Source: Devosia pacifica
GTDB lineage: Bacteria; Pseudomonadota; Alphaproteobacteria; Rhizobiales; Devosiaceae
Assembly (NCBI RefSeq): GCF_014652635.1
Contig: NZ_BMZE01000004.1
Location: 248,001 to 312,000, forward strand
Length of the DNA: 64,000 nucleotides
Direction of reading: 5' to 3'
A model generated the notes under the pieces. It did no database searches and had not been told where the DNA came from. It saw nothing but the letters and a program-made list of their open reading frames with translations. This document shows positions 8,506 to 18,320 of this stretch, piece after piece. The position numbers and the translations under genes were made by a program. Position 1 is the first letter of the stretch. Every line of letters begins with the position of its first letter.

Positions 8506-9789
8506 TCAGGAGTTGGTCTGAGCAGCTTCGATAGCCAGGTTGACGTCCTGCTCGATACGTTCGAGCGCTGCGTCGACGCTGAGCTCGTTGTTGAGCACCT
8601 GGCTGATGCGGGTGGTCAGCGAGTTCATCATCGCACGCTGATAACGCCAGCCCTGGAAGCGATAGGCAGCATCCGCCATCTTCGGGATCTGGGCGGAGAA
8701 CACCGCAAGCGCATCCTGAGTGTTCTCGGAAGCGCTCGGGTAGTCGACGCCGTTCTCGATCTGGGAGGCAGCGGACGGAATCTCGACTTCCTGGGAGATG
8801 TAGAAGTCGAGGTTCTCCGGCTGAGCGAAGAAGTTGATCAGCTCGCCGACCAGCTCCGGATGATCGGTATGGGAGAATCCGACCATGGCGCCGCCGCCGG
8901 GCATGACTGTGCAGGACGAGGGCCCACACGGTGCTGGCACAACTGCCCAATCGAACAGGTCGCCAACTTCGGTGTCCATCTGCGCCAGCGTCCAGGAGCC
9001 ACCGAAATAAAGGACGACGTTGGCGTTCAGGAAGTCCGAGAACAGCTCGCGGTGAGTCGAGCCGCCGACAGCGCCCCAAAGGTCCATCGGCATCGTGCCA
9101 TTCTCGTGCCATTCGACAAATTGTTCGATGGCAGCGCGAAGCCCGTCATCGACAACCGGGTTGCCTTCCTCGTCAACCAGTTCTGCGCCGTAGCTGATCG
9201 CAAGGCTGGCGAAACGGTGGCCCGAACGGTCCATCTCCATCGGGAAGTCAGTGCCGGTGGCCTCAGCAACCTGGCGTGTCGCTTCAGCCCATTCCTGCCA
9301 GGTTGCGCCTTCCTCGGGGACTTCGACGCCTGCCTGCTCGAACAGGGTCAGGTTCACGTAGGCGCCGTTCACAGTAAGCGTTGTGGGCATGCCGTAAATG
9401 GCACTGCTTTCTGTGTCTCCGCCGCGCAACCATTGCAGGGTCTGGCCCCACTCCTGCTCGAAATAATCAGCGTCCACATAGTCGGTAATGTCTTCATAGA
9501 ACGGGCTGAGCCCGCCCAGATCAGTGATGATGGCAATGTCCGGACCTTCGCCGGCCTGCAGCTGAACCGGCAGGCTTTCGACGATGGTTTGGTAGCTGAC
9601 TTCTTCGATCACGACGTCGACGCCGGGATGCTCTTCTTCGAACGTCGCCGCCATCTCCTCGAACAGGGTGCCGCCAGTGCCGGTATCGCCGACCAGCATG
9701 CGAATTTCCTGCCCGATCGCGCCTGTCGCCGGCAACGCCGCCAACACGAGTGCCAGGGCAGTGGTCGTCTTCATCGATGCAAGTTTCAT
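8506..9789 (-). CDS. Carbohydrate ABC transporter substrate-binding protein
   Basis: A 427-residue periplasmic solute-binding protein (extracellular family 1). The start at 9789 gives a normal signal peptide (MKLASMKTTTALALVLAALP, cleavage near ATG-AIGQ) and has a GGAGGAGGA ribosome binding site a few bases upstream; the longer frame from 9834 would add 15 residues without a signal function. Typical features include EEMAATFEEEHPGV near the N-terminus and a GGSWTL motif. It is the first gene of the minus-strand importer-uxuA operon, and its promoter lies in 9790..10065, where FadR-type operators are found. Ligand specificity cannot be read directly; a sugar-acid or glycoside substrate is inferred from the operon. 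Confidence 0.92.
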   Translation of the reverse strand: MKLASMKTTTALALVLAALPATGAIGQEIRMLVGDTGTGGTLFEEMAATFEEEHPGVDVVIEEVSYQTIVESLPVQLQAGEGPDIAIITDLGGLSPFYEDITDYVDADYFEQEWGQTLQWLRGGDTESSAIYGMPTTLTVNGAYVNLTLFEQAGVEVPEEGATWQEWAEATRQVAEATGTDFPMEMDRSGHRFASLAISYGAELVDEEGNPVVDDGLRAAIEQFVEWHENGTMPMDLWGAVGGSTHRELFSDFLNANVVLYFGGSWTLAQMDTEVGDLFDWAVVPAPCGPSSCTVMPGGGAMVGFSHTDHPELVGELINFFAQPENLDFYISQEVEIPSAASQIENGVDYPSASENTQDALAVFSAQIPKMADAAYRFQGWRYQRAMMNSLTTRISQVLNNELSVDAALERIEQDVNLAIEAAQTNS

Positions 9790-9854
9790 CCGAGTCCTCC
9801 TCCACTTGAATGCTTGTGAGGTCACACTAGGCATTCCTCGCGCAAACCGTCTTC

Positions 9855-9865
9855 TGGTAAGACCA
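9855..9865. promoter_or_regulatory. FadR/GntR-type operator, copy 1
   Basis: TGGTAAGACCA is an inverted repeat TGGT-AAG-ACCA. It lies about 66 nt upstream of the binding-protein start on the minus strand. A second identical copy is centred 25 bp away. Confidence 0.6.
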
Positions 9866-9879
9866 AAATGTCAAGCGTT

Positions 9880-9890
9880 TGGTAAGACCA
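9880..9890. promoter_or_regulatory. FadR/GntR-type operator, copy 2
   Basis: An exact second copy of TGGTAAGACCA. The 25-bp spacing suggests paired dimer binding on the promoter that serves the ABC importer and uxuA. Confidence 0.6.
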
Positions 9891-10065
9891 AAGTTTCAGA
9901 GATCTCGTAAATAACGGAAAGATCATGATATTCTGACACGAGGGAATTGGACCAAAGCGCGAATTGGTCAGCCAATGGCTTGACATTGGCATGATCAAGG
10001 GGTTTGTGATGGGCCGAAATTCGGACCGGAAGCGGTCTGTCTGCGCTCAAGAGGAGACATCTCGT

Positions 10066-11073
10066 ATGCTCAGATTTGCAGTGGTTGGCATCGACCACGG
10101 TCACATCTTCGATCACATCAAGGGACTGACACGCGCGGGTGCCGAGTTTGTCGGCTTCTGTCCGAAATCATCTGTGCCCGCCCTGGTGGAAAAAGTCGCC
10201 GAGGCTTACCCCGATGCACCACAGATCCCGCGCGAGCAGTTGTTCGCCGATGAGAGCATCGATGTTATCTGCACCGCTGCAATTCCACGGGATCGGGCCG
10301 GTATCGCCATTGAGGCGATGCGCGCCGGAAAGGACGTGATCACCGACAAGCCCGGCGTCACGACTTTCCAGCAACTTGAAGACATCAAGAAGACTGTTGC
10401 CGAGACCGGCAAGATATTCTCGATCTGCTTCACCGAGCGCCTATGCGTCCGCTCTGCCGTGAAAGCCGGCAAGCTCGTCAAGGATGGTGCTATCGGCAAG
10501 GTGGTACAGACCATGGGTATGGGGCCGCACCGCCTTGGCGGCACGCGCCCGGACTGGTTCTGGGAGTTCGATGCTTTCGGCGGCATCATCGTCGATATCG
10601 CATCGCATCAGATAGACCAGTTCCTGTTCTATACCGGCTCGACCTCCGGTGAAGTCGTGGCCTCCTCGGTCGGCAACTTTGCCTCGCCCGAAAAGACCGA
10701 GTTCCAGGATTTCGGTGAAGTCATGCTGCGCAGTGACAAGGGCTCCGGCTATGTCCGCGTCGATTGGTTCACGCCCGACGGCCTGCCCACCTGGGGCGAT
10801 GGCCGTCTCACCATCCTCGGGACCGAAGGCTATATCGAGCTGCGCAAATACGTCGACATCGCTGGCCGCGAGGGCAAGGATCACCTGTTCCTCGTGAACA
10901 AGGACGGCGTCGAGTACATCGATTGCTCGGATGAGACGCTTGAGTACTTCACTCAGTTCATCGCTGACGTGCGCGATCGCACAGAGACGGCGATGAGCCA
11001 GGAACACGTCTACGAAGTGTGCAGGCTCTCGCTGGAAGCGCAAACGAACGCCAGCAATCTGACAAGTCGCTAA
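10066..11073 (+). CDS. Gfo/Idh/MocA family oxidoreductase (atypical nucleotide motif)
   Basis: A 335-residue NAD(P)-dependent oxidoreductase homologue. The ATG at 10066 is chosen because GAGGAGA lies 9 nt upstream and the Rossmann strand starts at once (MLRFAVVGIDHGHI); the frame upstream has no Rossmann content. The glycine motif is G-I-D-H-G-H instead of G-x-G-x-x-G, and the usual EKP is DKPG (about residue 100). The second half has the expected C-terminal sheet domain (GGIIVDIASHQIDQFL). It lies 18 nt before a second Gfo/Idh/MocA gene and is divergent from the importer. It probably oxidises or epimerises the imported sugar or a derivative. The substrate is unknown. Confidence 0.8.
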   Translation: MLRFAVVGIDHGHIFDHIKGLTRAGAEFVGFCPKSSVPALVEKVAEAYPDAPQIPREQLFADESIDVICTAAIPRDRAGIAIEAMRAGKDVITDKPGVTTFQQLEDIKKTVAETGKIFSICFTERLCVRSAVKAGKLVKDGAIGKVVQTMGMGPHRLGGTRPDWFWEFDAFGGIIVDIASHQIDQFLFYTGSTSGEVVASSVGNFASPEKTEFQDFGEVMLRSDKGSGYVRVDWFTPDGLPTWGDGRLTILGTEGYIELRKYVDIAGREGKDHLFLVNKDGVEYIDCSDETLEYFTQFIADVRDRTETAMSQEHVYEVCRLSLEAQTNASNLTSR

Positions 11074-11091
11074 GCGGACAAGGAAAGACCA

Positions 11092-12156
11092 ATGACGGAA
11101 AAGCTCAGGGTCGGCATCGTCGGAGCGGGCATCGCCCAGCGCCACCTGACCGGCTACAAGTGGAACTCGGAACTGTTCGATGTGAAGGTCTTGTGCTCGC
11201 TCGATGAAGAGCGCGGCAAGCCGGCCTGCGAGGAGTTCGGAATCCCCGAATACACCCAGGATATCGAGACCCTCTTTGCCCGGGACGATCTCGACATCAT
11301 CGATGTCTGCACCCCACCGGATTCGCACTTCGAGTTCTCCAAGCGCGCCATCGAAGCCGGCAAGCACGTCATCTGCGAAAAGCCGCTATTCGGCTCGATC
11401 GCCGAGGTCGACGAGATGATGGAGATCGTTTCGAAGACCGATCGCAAATTCATGCCGATCTTCCAGTACCGCTATGGCACTGGCCTTCAGAAACTGAAGC
11501 GCCTGATCGAACTCGGTCTCACCGGCAAGCCGTTCCTGACCACCATCGAGACCCATTGGTGGCGCGGCCCGGATTATTACGCGGTGCCGTGGCGCGGCAA
11601 ATGGGCGACCGAACTGGGCGGCGGGCTGCTTGGCCACGCCATCCATGCCCACGACATGCTGAACTACGTGCACGGCGCTTGCGCCGAGGTGTTCTCGCAT
11701 GGCGCGACCCTAGTCAACGACATCGAAGTCGAGGACACCTCGACACTATCCGTGCGTATGAAGAACGGCTCGCTGGCTGCATTGTCGATGACGCTCGGTT
11801 CGCGCAAGGAAATCTCGCGGTTGCGCTTCTGCTTCCATGATCTCGTCGCCGAGAGCATTCTCGAGCCCTACACCATGGGCCGTGACCCGTGGACGTTCAC
11901 TGCCGGCACACCCGAGCATCAGGCGAAAATTGACGCCGCGCTTGCCGACTACGAAGTCAAGGAAGACGGCTATACCCGTCAGTTCGAGCTGTTCCACGCC
12001 GCGATCACCGGCAACACCGAACCGCCGGTGACCTTGCAGGACGCCCGCAATTCGCTGGAGCTGGTGACGGCTGCTTACCACTCACAGCGCACCGGTGAAC
12101 GGACGCCGCTGCCAATTCAGGCGCAGCACCCGCTATACCGGTCCTGGCTCCCGTAG
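11092..12156 (+). CDS. Gfo/Idh/MocA family oxidoreductase
   Basis: A 354-residue enzyme with a canonical Rossmann motif (VGIVGAGIAQRH) and the catalytic Lys in CEKPLFG (about residue 97). The C-terminal substrate domain contains HWWRGPDYYAVPWRGKW and GGGLLGHAIHAHDML, with histidines typical of the active site. It follows the first oxidoreductase in the same operon and is 10 nt upstream of the GntR gene. Two paired Gfo/Idh/MocA enzymes often carry out consecutive oxidations or redox-neutral epimerisations of sugars or inositols. Which sugar is used here cannot be read from sequence. Confidence 0.88.
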   Translation: MTEKLRVGIVGAGIAQRHLTGYKWNSELFDVKVLCSLDEERGKPACEEFGIPEYTQDIETLFARDDLDIIDVCTPPDSHFEFSKRAIEAGKHVICEKPLFGSIAEVDEMMEIVSKTDRKFMPIFQYRYGTGLQKLKRLIELGLTGKPFLTTIETHWWRGPDYYAVPWRGKWATELGGGLLGHAIHAHDMLNYVHGACAEVFSHGATLVNDIEVEDTSTLSVRMKNGSLAALSMTLGSRKEISRLRFCFHDLVAESILEPYTMGRDPWTFTAGTPEHQAKIDAALADYEVKEDGYTRQFELFHAAITGNTEPPVTLQDARNSLELVTAAYHSQRTGERTPLPIQAQHPLYRSWLP

Positions 12157-12166
12157 GCTCGGTACC

Positions 12167-12928
12167 ATGCAAAGCGAGAGGCCAGCCCGGCCACAAGGGG
12201 AGCGGCTCTACCAGGCCGTTGCCCGCCGGATTGCCCGGCTGATCGAGACCCACGCCGGTGACAAGAGCTGGCGGATGCCATCCGAGCGTGAGCTGGCAGA
12301 GGAACTCGAGGTCAGCCGGCCCGTCATCCGAGAGGCGGTGATCGCGCTTGAAATGCGCGGCGTCGTCGAAGTCCGTGGCCGGGCTGGTATTGTCGTTTTG
12401 CCTTCGCGTGCCGCGCAGGTGAATTTCGATCTTGCCGAGTCCGATATCGGTCCCGGCCCGTTCGAATTGCTCGAGGCGCGGCTGGCAATCGAATCGAGTG
12501 CCGCCAGCCTCGCGGCCGAACGCGCCACCAGCTACGACATCATGGTGCTTGAAGAGTGCATCGCCCAGATGGAGCAGGAGACGAATGTCGTGCTGCTGCA
12601 GGAAAAGGGCGATCGCGATTTTCACATGACGATCGCGCGCATGACCAACAACGCCATCATCGTCTCGATGATCGAAACGCTGTGGGCTCAGCGTGACGAG
12701 TCGGTGATGTGGAAGAAACTGCACGAACACATCCACGCCGAGAACGTCCGGCCGCTCTGGATCGGCGACCATCACTCGATCGTCTCTGCGCTGCGCATGC
12801 GTCATCCGGATGCTGCCTACAAGGCCATGGCTCGCCACATTCGCAACGTCATCAATGAACTGCTCGAGGCCGACGAGCGCGGACGCTTCGCCCCGGAAGA
12901 GACCGAAGAGCAATCATCGCGCGGTTGA
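12167..12928 (+). CDS. FadR-family GntR transcriptional regulator
   Basis: A 253-residue repressor or activator. The start at 12167 (MQSERPARPQ) places the winged HTH at about residues 12-75 (LYQAVARRIARLI, MPSERELAEELEVSRPVIREA, MRGVVEVRGRAG). An all-helical FCD effector domain follows, with metal-ligand residues typical of the family (D...H, with further His near EHIHAE and HHSIV). It is the last gene of the oxidoreductase operon. FadR-subfamily proteins bind TGGT-N3-ACCA sites, and two such sites lie in the divergent region upstream (9855-9890), so it is the likely regulator of both directions. The effector is probably a sugar-acid intermediate. Confidence 0.9.
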   Translation: MQSERPARPQGERLYQAVARRIARLIETHAGDKSWRMPSERELAEELEVSRPVIREAVIALEMRGVVEVRGRAGIVVLPSRAAQVNFDLAESDIGPGPFELLEARLAIESSAASLAAERATSYDIMVLEECIAQMEQETNVVLLQEKGDRDFHMTIARMTNNAIIVSMIETLWAQRDESVMWKKLHEHIHAENVRPLWIGDHHSIVSALRMRHPDAAYKAMARHIRNVINELLEADERGRFAPEETEEQSSRG

Positions 12929-13115: not shown

Positions 13116-13232
13116 ATGAAAACCAAGCTGTCCATCACGAAAGGAGACACATCCCACAAGGACACATTGATTCATGGACGTTCGAGTTCCGCCCTCCAAC
13201 GCTGCCAAAGCGCGCCTGCACGAGACCTCTAG
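13116..13232 (+). CDS. Possible 38-residue leader peptide upstream of ABC exporter
   Basis: A short frame beginning MKTKLSITKGDTSHKD with a strong ribosome binding site (GAGGGAGACCACC directly before the ATG). It runs past the exporter start at 13174 and ends at 13232 in a different frame. The good ribosome binding site and overlap would allow translational coupling to the exporter gene, whose own start has a weaker upstream signal. It could also be chance; no homologue is recognised. Confidence 0.3.
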   Translation: MKTKLSITKGDTSHKDTLIHGRSSSALQRCQSAPARDL

Positions 13233-14991
13233 CCAGTTAGGTGCCTCTCCGCACCAGCAAAGCCGCTGGCGAAAATTCCTGAGCTATTATCGCCCGCATC
13301 TGCCGCTTCTGGTGGCGGATCTGCTCTGCGCGATTCTGGTCGCCGCCACCGCCGTCGCGCTGCCGCTCTGCGCAAATTACCTGACAACGCACCTCGCGTC
13401 TCTCGCGGAAGGTCGCGAGGCCATTGAGCTGATTCTGGCGATGGGCGCAGTCATGCTGCTCATCCTCGCAATACAGGTCGTCGCCATCTACTTCGTCGAT
13501 TATCGCGGCCATGTCATGGGCGCGCGGATCGAAGCCGCGGTTCGTCAGGAGCTCTTCGAGCACTGTCAGAAGCTCTCCTTCAGCTTTTATGACCGGCAGC
13601 GCACCGGCCAGCTGATGAGCCGCATCACCGACGATTCCCTCTGGCTCGGCGAGCTGTTTCACCATGGCCCGGAGGATCTGGCGATCGGGCTGCTGAAATA
13701 TCTCGGTGCGCTCGCTGTGCTGATCTACATCGATCCGCTTCTGGCTGGTCTCATTGCGCTTTTGACTCCGCCCGCAGTGCTTTACGCGCTGCACTTCAAC
13801 CGCCGTATGGGGCTGGCGCTCGATCGTAGCAAGCAGGAGATCGCCGCGGTCAACGAGCGCGTCGAAGACTCCCTGTCCGGCATCCGCGTGGTGCAATCCT
13901 TCGGCAATGAGACGCTGGAACGGGATCGTTTCGTTGATCACAACCAGCGCTTTCTCGATAGCCGCGCCGATGGGTATCGCAGCGAGGCCTGGTTCTCCGT
14001 CGGCACGGAAACCTTCGCGCAGCTGATCACCATCCTCGTCATCGTCGCCGGGGCCTGGCGCATTACGTCCGGCGCACTAACCGTACCGGAGATGCTGACG
14101 TTCCTGCTCTGTGTCGCTGTGCTGGTAGACCCGGTTCAGCGCCTCGCCAATTTCGTCAGGCTCTGGCAGGAAGGCTATACTGGCTTCAAGCGCGCCATGG
14201 ATCTGCTTGAGATCGGCCCCGAAATTGTCGATCGCCCGAACGCGGTCGATATGCCTGAACCCAAGGGGCACATAAAATTTGAGGATGTGTCCTTCGGCTA
14301 TACGCAGGATGCGCCGGTGCTGCACCATCTAGGTCTCGAAGTGAAAGCCGGCGAATTTGTCGCGCTCGTTGGCCCGTCAGGTGTGGGCAAGAGTACGCTG
14401 TGTGCGCTTATCCCGCGGTTTTACGACGTGAGCACTGGCGCGATCCTCATTGACGGCACCGATATCCGCGATGTCACCCTGTCGTCACTGCGCCGTCACG
14501 TTGGCCTCGTTCAGCAGGACGTCTATCTGTTCTCGGGCACCGTGGCGGAAAACCTGCGCTATGGCAGGCCGGATGCCAGTCACGAGGACATTGTCGCCGC
14601 TGCACGAGCGGCCAACGCCCACGCGTTCATATCGGCTCTGCCGCTGGGCTACGATACGGACATTGGCCAGCGTGGCGTCAGGTTGTCGGGCGGTCAGAAG
14701 CAACGGCTGACGATTGCCCGCGCTTTCCTGAAAAATCCGCCAATTCTGATCTTCGACGAGGCCACCAGCGCCCTCGATAACGAGAGCGAACGTGCTGTCC
14801 AACAGGCTCTCCTTAGCCTGGCGAAAGGCCGCACCACCATCGTCATCGCTCATCGGCTGTCGACCGTTCGTCACGCTGATCGCATCGTTGTGCTGACAGG
14901 CGACGGCATAGCGGAGGAGGGGACGCATGATCAGCTGATGGCGGGCAATGGGGTTTATGCCGGGCTGCACACGGTTCAGGCCAGTATCTGA
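13174..14991 (+). CDS. ABC exporter, fused permease/ATPase (MsbA-like half-transporter)
   Basis: A 605-residue type IV exporter half-unit. A six-helix membrane domain spans about residues 35-330, followed by a nucleotide-binding domain with Walker A (GPSGVGKST), signature LSGGQKQRL, Walker B (ILIFDEATSALD) and H loop (VIAHRLST). The coupling-helix region and the FYDRQRTGQLMSRITDD motif are typical of MsbA/lipid or drug exporters, which work as homodimers. It precedes the NdmCDE-like genes by about 100 nt on the same strand and could be co-transcribed with them. The substrate is unknown; lipid A transport is only one possibility. Confidence 0.9.
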   Translation: MDVRVPPSNAAKARLHETSSQLGASPHQQSRWRKFLSYYRPHLPLLVADLLCAILVAATAVALPLCANYLTTHLASLAEGREAIELILAMGAVMLLILAIQVVAIYFVDYRGHVMGARIEAAVRQELFEHCQKLSFSFYDRQRTGQLMSRITDDSLWLGELFHHGPEDLAIGLLKYLGALAVLIYIDPLLAGLIALLTPPAVLYALHFNRRMGLALDRSKQEIAAVNERVEDSLSGIRVVQSFGNETLERDRFVDHNQRFLDSRADGYRSEAWFSVGTETFAQLITILVIVAGAWRITSGALTVPEMLTFLLCVAVLVDPVQRLANFVRLWQEGYTGFKRAMDLLEIGPEIVDRPNAVDMPEPKGHIKFEDVSFGYTQDAPVLHHLGLEVKAGEFVALVGPSGVGKSTLCALIPRFYDVSTGAILIDGTDIRDVTLSSLRRHVGLVQQDVYLFSGTVAENLRYGRPDASHEDIVAAARAANAHAFISALPLGYDTDIGQRGVRLSGGQKQRLTIARAFLKNPPILIFDEATSALDNESERAVQQALLSLAKGRTTIVIAHRLSTVRHADRIVVLTGDGIAEEGTHDQLMAGNGVYAGLHTVQASI

Positions 14992-15095: not shown

Positions 15096-15965
15096 ATGAA
15101 CCGCCCCAATCCCTATCTCAACGATCATTGGCACGTAGTCGCCGGCAATGAAGCGGTGGCCTCCGGCCAGCCGTTCCGCACAGTGCTGTTCGATGTGCCG
15201 ATCATCATTCAACGTCTGGCTGACGGCCTGCGCGTCACTGCAGCATTAGCGCCGGAAAAGCCGCTGCCGGTTCTTGAGCGATACGGCTTCATCTGGACCA
15301 GCCTTGGCACCCCTATGCCGCTGTTCGAAATTCCGGAATACGACGAAGCTGACCGGCGCAACATGAATGCCGGCTCGCTCGGCGTCGCCGTATCCGCCCC
15401 ACGCGCCATCGAGAATTTCCTCGATATGGGGCACTTCCCTTATGTCCACACCGATATCCTGGGGGCTGAGCCGCACACCGAGGTGAAGGAATACGATGTC
15501 GAAGTTTCCGCCGAGCGCGGCGAGGTTCTCGCGACTCGCTGCCGGTTTTTTCAACCCCGCGCCGCGACCTCATCTGCCGGTGGGCAGGAAGTGGAGTACG
15601 TCTACCGCGTGCCGCATCCGTATTGCTCAGTGCTATACAAATCCTGCCCCTCGGATGAAAACCGCCGGGATGTCATCGCCATCTTCTGCCAGCCGGTCGG
15701 CGAGGAGCGGATCGTCGCGCACATGCTGCAGTCGCTGATCGACGATGTCAGCACCATCACCGATATGCGCCGCTTCCAGCAGACCATTTTTGGGCAGGAC
15801 AAGCCGATCCTTGAAAATCAGTATCCCAAGAAACTGCCGCTCGATCCGCGTGCCGAAACCCCCATCCGCGCCGACAAGTCGGCTATTGCCTATCGCCGCT
15901 GGCTCAGCCAGATGGGCGTCAATTACGGTGTCATACCGCTAGTGCCTAGAGTCGCCGATGTCTGA
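15096..15965 (+). CDS. Rieske-less ring-hydroxylating oxygenase catalytic subunit (NdmC-like)
   Basis: A 289-residue protein with the catalytic domain of Rieske non-haem iron oxygenases: N107, D110, H113 and H118 form the N-x-x-D-x-x-H-x4-H mononuclear iron and bridging motif, and the third iron ligand is expected in the ITDMRRFQQTIFGQDKPILE helix. The N-terminal 70 residues keep the scaffold strands of a Rieske domain (NDHWHVVAG and RYGFIWTSLG), but the cluster-binding lobe with C-x-H and C-x2-H is missing. The [2Fe-2S] Rieske domain is on the next gene, which overlaps by 8 nt. This split is that of NdmC in the caffeine/7-methylxanthine N-demethylase NdmCDE. The substrate is unknown, and an N- or O-demethylation is likely. 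The start at 15096 is the first ATG fitting the fold. Confidence 0.85.
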   Translation: MNRPNPYLNDHWHVVAGNEAVASGQPFRTVLFDVPIIIQRLADGLRVTAALAPEKPLPVLERYGFIWTSLGTPMPLFEIPEYDEADRRNMNAGSLGVAVSAPRAIENFLDMGHFPYVHTDILGAEPHTEVKEYDVEVSAERGEVLATRCRFFQPRAATSSAGGQEVEYVYRVPHPYCSVLYKSCPSDENRRDVIAIFCQPVGEERIVAHMLQSLIDDVSTITDMRRFQQTIFGQDKPILENQYPKKLPLDPRAETPIRADKSAIAYRRWLSQMGVNYGVIPLVPRVADV

Positions 15966-17673
15966 ACTGTCCGCCGCCTGGCATCCAATCGCTTCGAGTG
16001 AGGATCTGCCATATCGCCATGTCTTCCATGGCCAGTTGCTGGGGCGTGAGTTCGCCGTCTGGCGCGCCGATGATGGCAACGTCAATGTCTGGGAAAATCG
16101 CTGCTTGCATCGCGGCGTCCGCCTGTCCATCGGCATCAATGAAGGCGCCGAACTCAAGTGCCAGTATCACGGTTGGCGCTATGCCAATCGCACTGCCGGC
16201 TGCACCTATATCCCGGCCCATCCCGCCGATGCGCCGGCGCGCCGTATCACCAACCGGACCTATCCGGTCATCGAGTTTGCGGGGCTCGTCTGGTCCGCTG
16301 CCGGCGCTGCCGATGCCTTTGTGGAACCGCTGCAAGAGGCCGACTGGTTCGCCCTGCGCCCCATTCCTGTCACCGCCACACCCGAGATGGTGCGCGATAA
16401 GGTTGTCGCAGCCGCAGAGCCTGGAAGTGAACCGGTCCGGCTTACGGAGTTCGGCTACAGCATGAAGCTCGCTGGCGGCCGTGGTGAAGACGCCGCTGTC
16501 TTTATTCAGCCGGTTGATGCGGGCAGGGCTGTTATCCGCGCCCTGTTGCCAGAAACGCCCGCGCAGCCTCTCGCAACCTTGCGCCACTACAACGCTTTGC
16601 TGAATGCTCTGCGCGAACAGATCGAGCGCACGGCGCGCGAGGCTCCGGCACCTGAACCGATCGAGCCGGAATACGAGCCGGTATCGCTGGAACTGGCGAC
16701 TATGCCGGAACTGCGCCTTGGGACCCGAACCAGCATTCGCGTTCGCGTTGCACGCAAATACGATGCCGGCGAAGGTGTCATCGGCCTCGATCTGGCAGCC
16801 CTCGAAGGGCATCTGCCAACCTTTCAGCCCGGTGCGCATATAGATGTGCACCTGCCCAACGGCCTTGTCCGCCAATACTCGATCACCAATGGCCCGGGCG
16901 AACAGCTCCACTACGGCATCGGCGTCAAGCGCGAGCCGGAATCGCGCGGCGGCTCCTCCACCATTGCAGAGGCTGTGCGCGAGGGCGACCTGTTGGCGAT
17001 TTCCGAACCGCGCAACAACTTTCCCCTTCGCCGCGACGCCACCCGTACCACGCTTATTGCCGGCGGTATCGGCATCACGCCGCTGCTGGCAATGGCGAAA
17101 AACCTGTTCGGCTCGCGGCTCGAGTTCGATTTTCATGTCTTCGCGCGCTCACAGCAGCACCTGCCGTTCGCCGATGCCCTTGAACGGTTCGGCGATCACG
17201 TCTCTCCACATATCGGCCTCGACGCGGCTGAGACCGGGCGAACGCTGGAAGAAATCGTCGGCAGCTATAGCTTTGCCCGGCATCTTTACGTATGCGGGCC
17301 GGCGCCAATGCTCGAACTCGTACGCGCGCTCGCTGCCCGCAATGGCTGGCCGGACGAGGCGGTGCATTTCGAGTACTTCAAGAACACGCGCGAAATCGAT
17401 CAGAGCTCAAGCTTCACGGTAGAGCTTGCACGTTCTGCGCTGACGCTCGAAGTGCCCGCAGGCCGCACAATCCTTGAGGTATTGCGCGAGAATGGCGTCG
17501 AGGCGCCGTCTTCATGCGAGCAGGGCGCCTGCGGCACGTGCCTGACGAAAGTGCTTGAGGGCACACCCGACCATCAGGACGTCTACCTCAACGAGACCGA
17601 GAAGCAGGCCAATGCCTCGATGCTGACCTGCGTCTCCCGCTCTCTCTCCGACAAGCTGGTTCTCGATATCTGA
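15958..17673 (+). CDS. Rieske [2Fe-2S] domain fused to FNR-type reductase and ferredoxin (NdmD-like)
   Basis: A 571-residue electron-transfer protein. Residues 1-120 are a full Rieske domain with C49-x-H51 and C68-x2-H71. After a linker, residues from about 245 form an FMN/NAD(P) reductase with RQYSIT (FMN), AGGIGITPLLAM and YVCGPAPML (nucleotide binding). The C-terminal plant-type ferredoxin has C520, C525, C528 and C558. Ordinary oxygenase reductases lack the N-terminal Rieske domain; NdmD of Pseudomonas putida CBB5 has exactly this order. Electrons would pass NAD(P)H to FMN to ferredoxin to Rieske to the iron of the partner oxygenase. The gene overlaps both neighbours, by 8 nt upstream and 1 nt downstream (TGATG). 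Confidence 0.9.
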   Translation: MSELSAAWHPIASSEDLPYRHVFHGQLLGREFAVWRADDGNVNVWENRCLHRGVRLSIGINEGAELKCQYHGWRYANRTAGCTYIPAHPADAPARRITNRTYPVIEFAGLVWSAAGAADAFVEPLQEADWFALRPIPVTATPEMVRDKVVAAAEPGSEPVRLTEFGYSMKLAGGRGEDAAVFIQPVDAGRAVIRALLPETPAQPLATLRHYNALLNALREQIERTAREAPAPEPIEPEYEPVSLELATMPELRLGTRTSIRVRVARKYDAGEGVIGLDLAALEGHLPTFQPGAHIDVHLPNGLVRQYSITNGPGEQLHYGIGVKREPESRGGSSTIAEAVREGDLLAISEPRNNFPLRRDATRTTLIAGGIGITPLLAMAKNLFGSRLEFDFHVFARSQQHLPFADALERFGDHVSPHIGLDAAETGRTLEEIVGSYSFARHLYVCGPAPMLELVRALAARNGWPDEAVHFEYFKNTREIDQSSSFTVELARSALTLEVPAGRTILEVLRENGVEAPSSCEQGACGTCLTKVLEGTPDHQDVYLNETEKQANASMLTCVSRSLSDKLVLDI

Positions 17674-18320
17674 TGATTACCCTTTATGACTTCGAGCTCT
17701 CGGGCAATTGCTACAAGCCGCGACTGCTGATGAGCATTCTCGGGCTCACCTATGAGACCGTCCCTGTCGATTTCTACCCGGGGCGCGAGCACAAGTCCGA
17801 AGCTTTCCTAAAGCTCAACCCGTTCGGAGAGCTACCGGTTCTCGTCGATGATGGTCTGGTTTTGCGCGATAGTCAGGCCATTCTGATCTACCTTGCCAGC
17901 AAGTACGACAAGACCGGACAATGGTATCCGCTCTCTGACCCAGCGGTGCTGGCCGAGATCGCCATCTGGCATGATTTCGCCAATCGGATCACGGCCACTG
18001 CATCTGCGGCGCGCTTGGGGCTCAGCATGTTCTATGATGTTGATATCGAAGCGGCCCAGGCAGGCGCGCACCAATTGTTTCGTCTTTTGGATGAGCATTT
18101 GTGGTTTGGAGAAAGGGAAGGGCGCGATTGGCTCTGCGCGCCCTCTCATCCTACGACTGCCGATATTGCCTGCTTCCCCTATGTCGCGCTTTCGGAAGAG
18201 GCAGGGGTTCCGCGCCAGGATTACCCGGCAATTCGCCGCTGGCTGGATCGTGTAAAGCGTATTCCGGGGTTCACGGTCATGTCCGGAGTCTTTCCGGCTG
18301 GCCCGGCCATCGAGGCCTAG
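17673..18320 (+). CDS. Glutathione S-transferase family protein (NdmE-like)
   Basis: A 215-residue GST-fold protein with an N-terminal thioredoxin-like domain (SGNCYKPRLLMSILGL, then FGELPVLVDDGLVLRDSQAI, with the cis-Pro and the glutathione-contact Asp-Ser) and an all-helical C-terminal domain from about residue 90. It starts on the TGA of the Rieske-reductase gene, so it is translationally coupled. In the NdmCDE system, NdmE is a GST homologue reported to act as a structural partner in the complex instead of as a transferase. The same role is inferred here from gene order and overlap. A true glutathione-dependent step remains possible. Confidence 0.85.
   Translation: MITLYDFELSGNCYKPRLLMSILGLTYETVPVDFYPGREHKSEAFLKLNPFGELPVLVDDGLVLRDSQAILIYLASKYDKTGQWYPLSDPAVLAEIAIWHDFANRITATASAARLGLSMFYDVDIEAAQAGAHQLFRLLDEHLWFGEREGRDWLCAPSHPTTADIACFPYVALSEEAGVPRQDYPAIRRWLDRVKRIPGFTVMSGVFPAGPAIEA

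Follow-up and report, generated by a model that had tools for sequence, protein, structure and literature searches.

A three-gene operon of Devosia pacifica resembling NdmCDE, with Rieske oxygenase functions divided between two subunits that look reciprocally decayed

The closest described counterpart of a three-gene operon found in Devosia pacifica is the N-demethylase NdmCDE of Pseudomonas putida CBB5. The operon occupies positions 15096–18320 of the forward strand of a 64,000-nucleotide stretch (contig NZ_BMZE01000004.1, positions 248,001 to 312,000), referred to here as the window and providing the numbering used throughout. A review (PMC4408171) describes NdmC as devoid of a Rieske cluster, NdmD as equipped with an additional one and NdmE as postulated to be structural, and reports homologous clusters of unknown function from 18 further organisms which, besides three that are named, are predominantly Sinorhizobium and Mesorhizobium. 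The structure of the NdmCDE complex was described as unsolved in May 2026 (PMC13237722). Operons of this kind have already been reported, mostly from rhizobia, and that of the window adds a further member; Devosia is not mentioned in the literature on NdmD or N-demethylase among the matches listed.

The first gene (15096–15965) encodes a Rieske-less, NdmC-like non-heme iron oxygenase subunit of 289 residues (OXY), the second (15958–17673) an NdmD-like reductase of 571 residues (RED) that is extended at its N-terminus by a Rieske domain, and the third (17673–18320) an NdmE-like subunit of 215 residues with a glutathione S-transferase (GST) fold. All three lie on the forward strand and were assigned by open reading frames and Pfam, and in the case of OXY also by structural models. 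An earlier reading made from the bare letters (the sequence-only reading) had proposed three overlapping genes at these positions, and the open reading frames bear this out, with an 8-nucleotide overlap between OXY and RED and a 1-nucleotide overlap between RED and GST. Its domain assignments, an oxygenase without a Rieske domain, a Rieske-extended reductase with flavin mononucleotide (FMN)/NAD and ferredoxin domains and a GST fold, agree with Pfam and PDB searches. The window therefore shares with P. putida CBB5 a Rieske-less oxygenase, a Rieske-extended reductase and a GST-fold protein encoded by adjacent genes.

Comparison with NdmCDE-type systems

The cluster on plasmid p1 of Paraburkholderia caffeinilytica stood in for the P. 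putida CBB5 sequences. Ndm names were assigned to its genes here by order and similarity, since the record annotation reads otherwise ('dioxygenase subunit alpha', 'oxidoreductase' and 'glutathione S-transferase family protein'). Two Rieske oxygenase genes are followed there by a GntR gene, the NdmC-, NdmD- and NdmE-like genes, and genes for formaldehyde dehydrogenase and S-formylglutathione hydrolase. Each window protein has a counterpart in this caffeine-type cluster, with identities of 46% for OXY (277 columns), 39% for RED over its full length (593 columns) and 58% for the GST-fold subunit, supporting the proposed relatedness to an NdmCDE-type three-component oxygenase, and the sequence and structure neighbours of the three proteins come from the expected families and not from unrelated systems. 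The locus displays the features of the split type, namely a cluster-less oxygenase with iron ligands, a Rieske-extended reductase and a GST partner within the operon, and the hallmarks of the Rieske oxygenase superfamily (a CxH..CxxH motif, a 2-His-1-Asp site and a bridging Asp) are all present, distributed across two chains.

A comparison of the best 80 of 293 candidate loci showed this arrangement to be widely kept. RED followed by GST on the same strand was found in 74 of the 75 loci extending at least 2.5 kb beyond OXY, bearing out the expectation of a gene order conserved in other Hyphomicrobiales; the remaining locus, L032, contains both genes, with RED split over two frames. Record titles divide the 80 loci into 43 non-Devosia-like and 37 Devosia-like, the unplaced L010, L018 and L021 being put with Devosia. 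The Sinorhizobium and Mesorhizobium clusters (reported in Summers 2013, as cited in PMC4408171) contain the same operon, with second-copy OXYs ~60–65% identical in most loci. They differ from the window, which has one OXY and neither an importer nor a GntR gene nearby, in that both genes are mostly found close by and that 32 of the 43 non-Devosia-like loci carry two tandem OXY genes with one RED and one GST (e.g., L080:5078-6885), the tandem copies falling in separate clades. Within the window's genus OXY occurs in 59 of 75 genomes (56 of the 68 good ones) and RED in 58, one of these matching over the reductase half only; coinciding coordinates identify the Devosia genome of locus L001 as part of this set. 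A class-wide sample, in which up to six candidates were scored per genome, gave an OXY match at E ≤ 1e-40 in 8 of 385 genomes, the D. pacifica genome among them. OXY is common in the genus and rare elsewhere in the class sample.

An OXY tree was built from 92 of 119 OXY rows (loci L001–L086 and the window, omitting seven broken, truncated or partial-locus rows and thinning Devosia) and two NdmA/NdmB-like proteins. The window OXY clusters with those of Devosia and other Hyphomicrobiales (16 rows, 98/95), a clade sitting in a larger set together with the rhizobial second copies (56 rows, 88/85) and separate from the rhizobial first copies (30 rows). A further separate branch consists of the NdmC-like protein from P. 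caffeinilytica and its Klebsiella relative; the branch order is unsettled, and long branches were flagged.

These comparisons bear on the most literal interpretation, that the operon encodes an N7-demethylase of 7-methylxanthine acting in caffeine breakdown exactly as NdmCDE does. Although the three components are the same and their identities substantial, such a role is improbable. The sequence-only reading had found neither ndmA nor ndmB in the window, and OXY is the sole match to itself at E ≤ 0.001 across the whole genome, so that the combination of ndmA and ndmB with ndmCDE typical of a caffeine cluster is not seen. The P. caffeinilytica NdmA- and NdmB-like proteins match OXY at 1e-15 or better, and the lack of a second match at the former threshold makes the presence of similar proteins in D. 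pacifica unlikely. The companion observation that the window has no xanthine dehydrogenase holds; the single xdhB match of the genome lies on another contig. Apart from the missing OXY paralogue, the window operon differs from NdmCDE in having no adjacent frm genes and in the separate branch taken by its OXY, and presence in over three quarters of the genus is unlike a specialised caffeine trait.

Two probably complementary halves of a Rieske oxygenase

Pfam matches OXY to VanA_C (6.4e-22) and to no Rieske family, NCBIfam gives zero matches, and Pfam and PDB sequence searches together place the protein among VanA/KshA-type oxygenase catalytic domains. Residues D110, H113 and H118 (15423–15449) and D235 (15798–15800), all on the forward strand, are present in 123 of 123 counted OXY copies (116 distinct, out of 128 collected, with truncated, broken or over-extended copies omitted), none of which contains a CxH..CxxH motif. 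By analogy with Rieske oxygenases we take D110 to be the bridging Asp and H113, H118 and D235 to be the iron ligands. The AlphaFold2 model of OXY (predicted local distance difference test, pLDDT, 88.5; predicted template modelling score, pTM, 0.88) finds chains of the whole oxygenases SxtT/GxtA as its 24 best Foldseek matches (TMq 0.77–0.85). OXY shares its model fold and iron ligands with these enzymes and with NdmA/NdmB, all of which, unlike OXY, hold Rieske cluster and iron in one chain. When residues 1–75 of OXY were aligned by hhalign with the RED Rieske domain a score of 64.4 was obtained, against a maximum of 20.8 for column-shuffled profiles (0/150). This match argues strongly that OXY contains a Rieske domain stripped of its cluster-binding part, a refinement of the term 'Rieske-less', the predicted remnant spanning residues 8–52 (15117–15251, forward strand). 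The alternative that OXY never had a Rieske domain was rejected on the basis of the same match.

RED contains Pfam Rieske (residues 8–90, 1.7e-17) and Fer2 (residues 490–561, 2.2e-16) domains, and its residues 260–571 resemble phthalate dioxygenase reductase 2pia (4.3e-59), which has the same order of FMN, NADH and ferredoxin modules and lacks the N-terminal extension. On the forward strand the Rieske [2Fe-2S] domain, with ligands C49, H51, C68 and H71, extends over residues 8–116 (15979–16305), and the FMN/NADH reductase with its plant-type ferredoxin (Cys 520, 525, 528 and 558) over residues 260–571 (16735–17670). Both the CxH..CxxH ligands and the four ferredoxin Cys are kept in 77 of 77 counted copies, these being the copies of at least 550 residues among 91 collected. 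Between the two, at residues 118–238 (16309–16671, forward strand), hhalign, AlphaFold2 and Foldseek point to what is probably an oxygenase catalytic domain that has become smaller and lacks iron ligands; it, too, is missing from 2pia. The AlphaFold2 model of RED (pLDDT 79.0, pTM 0.52) is poor in the cluster loops (residues 50–60 and 68–98, pLDDT <50) and confident for the blocks covering residues 101–230 (pLDDT 87–96), dropping to 78 for residues 231–240 and to 46 in the next block. An unstructured linker at residues 117–250 was considered and rejected on account of this confident region.

Profile comparison suggests where this hidden domain came from. Residues 117–250 of RED score 36.6 against the OXY catalytic domain in hhalign, compared with a column-shuffled maximum of 18.3 (0/150) and with 11.5–14.5 for six unrelated or other-domain profiles, the confident part of the match comprising just ~40 columns around a QP motif. 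The position equivalent to the iron-ligand Asp is L218 or R219, with a one-residue uncertainty, and 76 of 77 copies have Arg at the latter. The QP motif and its following helix can also be recognised by eye in the P. caffeinilytica reductase, extending the likeness to NdmCDE to the hidden domain. In Foldseek the RED model retrieves, after many reductases, five chains of the whole oxygenases SxtT/GxtA among its 50 best matches (E 4.6e-13 to 9.1e-13), over 290–295 columns of targets 318–327 residues long (TMt 0.45–0.50, rmsd 7.0–10.6). Since these alignments are longer than a Rieske domain, the hidden domain may be argued to take part in them, the high rmsd weighing against this argument. Three results speak against such a derivation: residues 117–250 score at chance level (13.2) against a three-sequence NdmA/NdmB profile, the domain finds no family in Pfam, with four isolated fragments compared, and a profile of residues 118–238 finds no oxygenase among PDB sequences, the one weak match being irrelevant. 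On balance, profile and model comparison support with moderate confidence the identification of RED residues 118–238 as a decayed catalytic domain devoid of iron ligands.

It thus appears that OXY and the RED N-terminal half are copies of a single full-length Rieske oxygenase that decayed in reciprocal fashion, the first keeping the iron and losing the cluster, the second keeping the cluster and losing the iron. The RED half is the less certain. The cluster of one Rieske oxygenase subunit is ~12 Å from the iron of its neighbour (PMC12445004), a spacing that would make pairing of the two decayed halves a natural electron path. Reciprocal decay thereby offers a testable model, in which a reductase-borne Rieske cluster reaches an iron on another chain.

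Proposed reaction and a possible link to purine catabolism

With a probability of about 0.6, the operon would encode a single multi-subunit oxidative N-demethylase, driven by NADH and acting on a methylated purine or similar compound. Domains, ligands and gene order, together with the BMP importer and formaldehyde genes that accompany its relatives, are read from the sequences, and the following course is proposed. NADH would supply electrons that reach the N-terminal Rieske cluster of RED by way of its FMN and plant-type ferredoxin domains and then cross a protein–protein interface to arrive at the mononuclear iron in OXY, beside the bridging Asp. With O2 activated at this iron, an N-methyl group on the purine or purine-like substrate would be hydroxylated and would leave as formaldehyde. 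The pairing of OXY with the RED N-terminal half would probably resemble that of two subunits of a full-length Rieske oxygenase, with the GST-fold protein as a brace joining OXY and RED.

Loss of formaldehyde is suggested by the genes around related operons. Flanks of up to 6 kb per side were inspected and many loci end at contig edges, so that neighbour counts are lower bounds. Among the 43 non-Devosia-like loci, a BMP importer gene was found in 37, an importer permease gene in 34, GntR in 29, frmA in 15 and frmB in 5. D. pacifica has its own frmA (glutathione-dependent formaldehyde dehydrogenase), located away from the operon and 83% identical to the frmA following the operon in L054. Formaldehyde genes beside the operon, present also in the P. 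caffeinilytica cluster, make it very unlikely that the enzyme acts by hydroxylating a purine ring carbon and removes no methyl group. That reaction is brought to mind by distant relatives annotated as HpxD (a purine hydroxylase subunit), two of which are listed with identities of 27.6 and 29.3%.

Several associations appear to tie the operon family to purine catabolism. On contig C1 of the D. pacifica genome (~1,070–1,083 kb) malate synthase G, guanine deaminase, a BMP importer, xdhC and xdhB are clustered, together with a protein that matches nothing in NCBIfam and that we take to be a PuuD-like urate oxidase. The closest match to the importer of this xdh cluster is encoded next to OXY, in divergent orientation, in Mesorhizobium sediminum and in a metagenome-assembled genome of Aquamicrobium (L008 and L024; 73–75% identity for BMP, 71–73% for the ATPase), the OXYs of which group with Devosia OXYs in the tree. 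In the genomes of L018 and L010, both containing OXY, a BMP relative (54–55% and 52–54%, respectively) lies inside an xdh–guanine deaminase operon. The P. caffeinilytica region likewise includes BMP and importer genes, its ATPase being 61% identical to the rhizobial one, and an amidohydrolase encoded with the operon variant of Rhizobium leguminosarum described below is nearest to 8-oxoguanine deaminase, under the cut-off of that family. This importer and purine linkage suggests a short list of candidate substrates.

Several observations weigh against the proposed reaction and its assignment to a methylated purine. None of the neighbours listed above, nor a tandem OXY pair, occurs within the up to 6 kb inspected per side in the 37 Devosia-like loci, and in the window neither BMP importer, GntR nor frm genes adjoin the operon. 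In the L008 and L024 genomes xdhB, guanine deaminase and urate oxidase were not found in the stretches around operon and importer. BMP/NUP importers do not all serve purines, and the only NCBIfam match of the D. pacifica BMP protein is a B6 importer, far under the cut-off. With xdhB and the importer gene each present in 73 of 75 genomes of the genus, their co-occurrence with OXY is uninformative. In the tree, the window OXY falls outside the NdmC-like pair. The same enzyme and electron path might instead serve another imported N-methyl heterocycle or amine: OXY falls into several branches (the window with the rhizobial second copies, the rhizobial first copies, and the NdmC-like proteins), so that substrates can differ, most non-Devosia-like loci have two catalytic subunits, and the importer family has other substrates, as the B6 model illustrates. 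A non-purine substrate is nevertheless rather unlikely, given that the importer adjoining the operon in close relatives is the best match to the one in the D. pacifica xanthine dehydrogenase/guanine deaminase operon.

The preferred reading, in which a methylated purine or a compound like it is demethylated, may be extended into a tentative evolutionary scenario, to which somewhat less than even odds are given. Duplication and reciprocal decay of a Rieske oxygenase would have been followed by pseudo-homotypic re-pairing in the service of N-methylpurine salvage by soil bacteria (e.g., of methylguanine from nucleic-acid turnover), feeding the usual purine catabolism, with caffeine demethylation as an offshoot. 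If true, methylpurine demethylation would be an ordinary trait in some soil bacteria, beyond caffeine degraders. A literature search returned no paper joining 7-methylguanine with Rieske and demethylase, and Asn282 of NdmA is not mentioned among the literature matches listed.

For the third subunit, which contains Pfam GST_N and GST_C domains, a role additional to that of a brace and compatible with it can be envisaged, in which it binds glutathione and traps the freed formaldehyde for FrmA. The conserved S10 (79 of 80 GST copies, one of 81 being omitted) and D66 (76 of 80) are presumably glutathione-site positions, and frmA lies by the operon in the 15 loci counted above. Trapping is nonetheless a doubtful proposition: S67, which supplies the Ser in the D/E-S motif for glutathione binding, is replaced by Ala in 39 of 80 copies, and the role postulated for NdmE in PMC4408171 is structural.

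Variants and genomic surroundings

An unfused form of the system is found on three plasmids, of Rhizobium leguminosarum, R. phaseoli and Shinella (L085:9330-11481, L142:7288-9430 and L143:7204-9355), where a stand-alone Rieske protein of 213–217 residues is followed by OXY, GST, an amidohydrolase and a BMP importer. The Rieske half can therefore exist on its own. No reductase gene is annotated in the adjoining stretch of the three plasmids; in R. phaseoli an FAD-dependent oxidoreductase gene lies ~1.7 kb upstream. Among 72,556 plasmid records, 141 contain relatives of the small Rieske protein, some of them possibly fused, and 124 of those records are from Rhizobium. Broken operon genes, reflecting decay or assembly errors, were seen in L044 (OXY1), L067 (OXY1 and RED) and L032 (RED). 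Mirror-tree correlations over 74 loci were 0.956 for OXY–RED, 0.864 for RED–GST and 0.817 for OXY–GST, values obtained without a control gene and not used as evidence. A Klebsiella pneumoniae plasmid (L083:7752-14406) carries an ndmCDE-like set and an NdmB-like gene amid transposase genes, with a nucleobase symporter gene further on.

Upstream of the operon in the window, an MsbA-like ABC exporter gene (13174–14991) on the same strand ends 104 nucleotides before OXY; its protein clustered with none of the flanking open reading frames from other loci. The stretch at 8506–12928, for which a link to the operon was not seen, looks like a sugar-type locus: its genes encode a solute-binding protein, two oxidoreductases of the Gfo/Idh/MocA type and a GntR regulator weakly similar to ExuR/UxuR.

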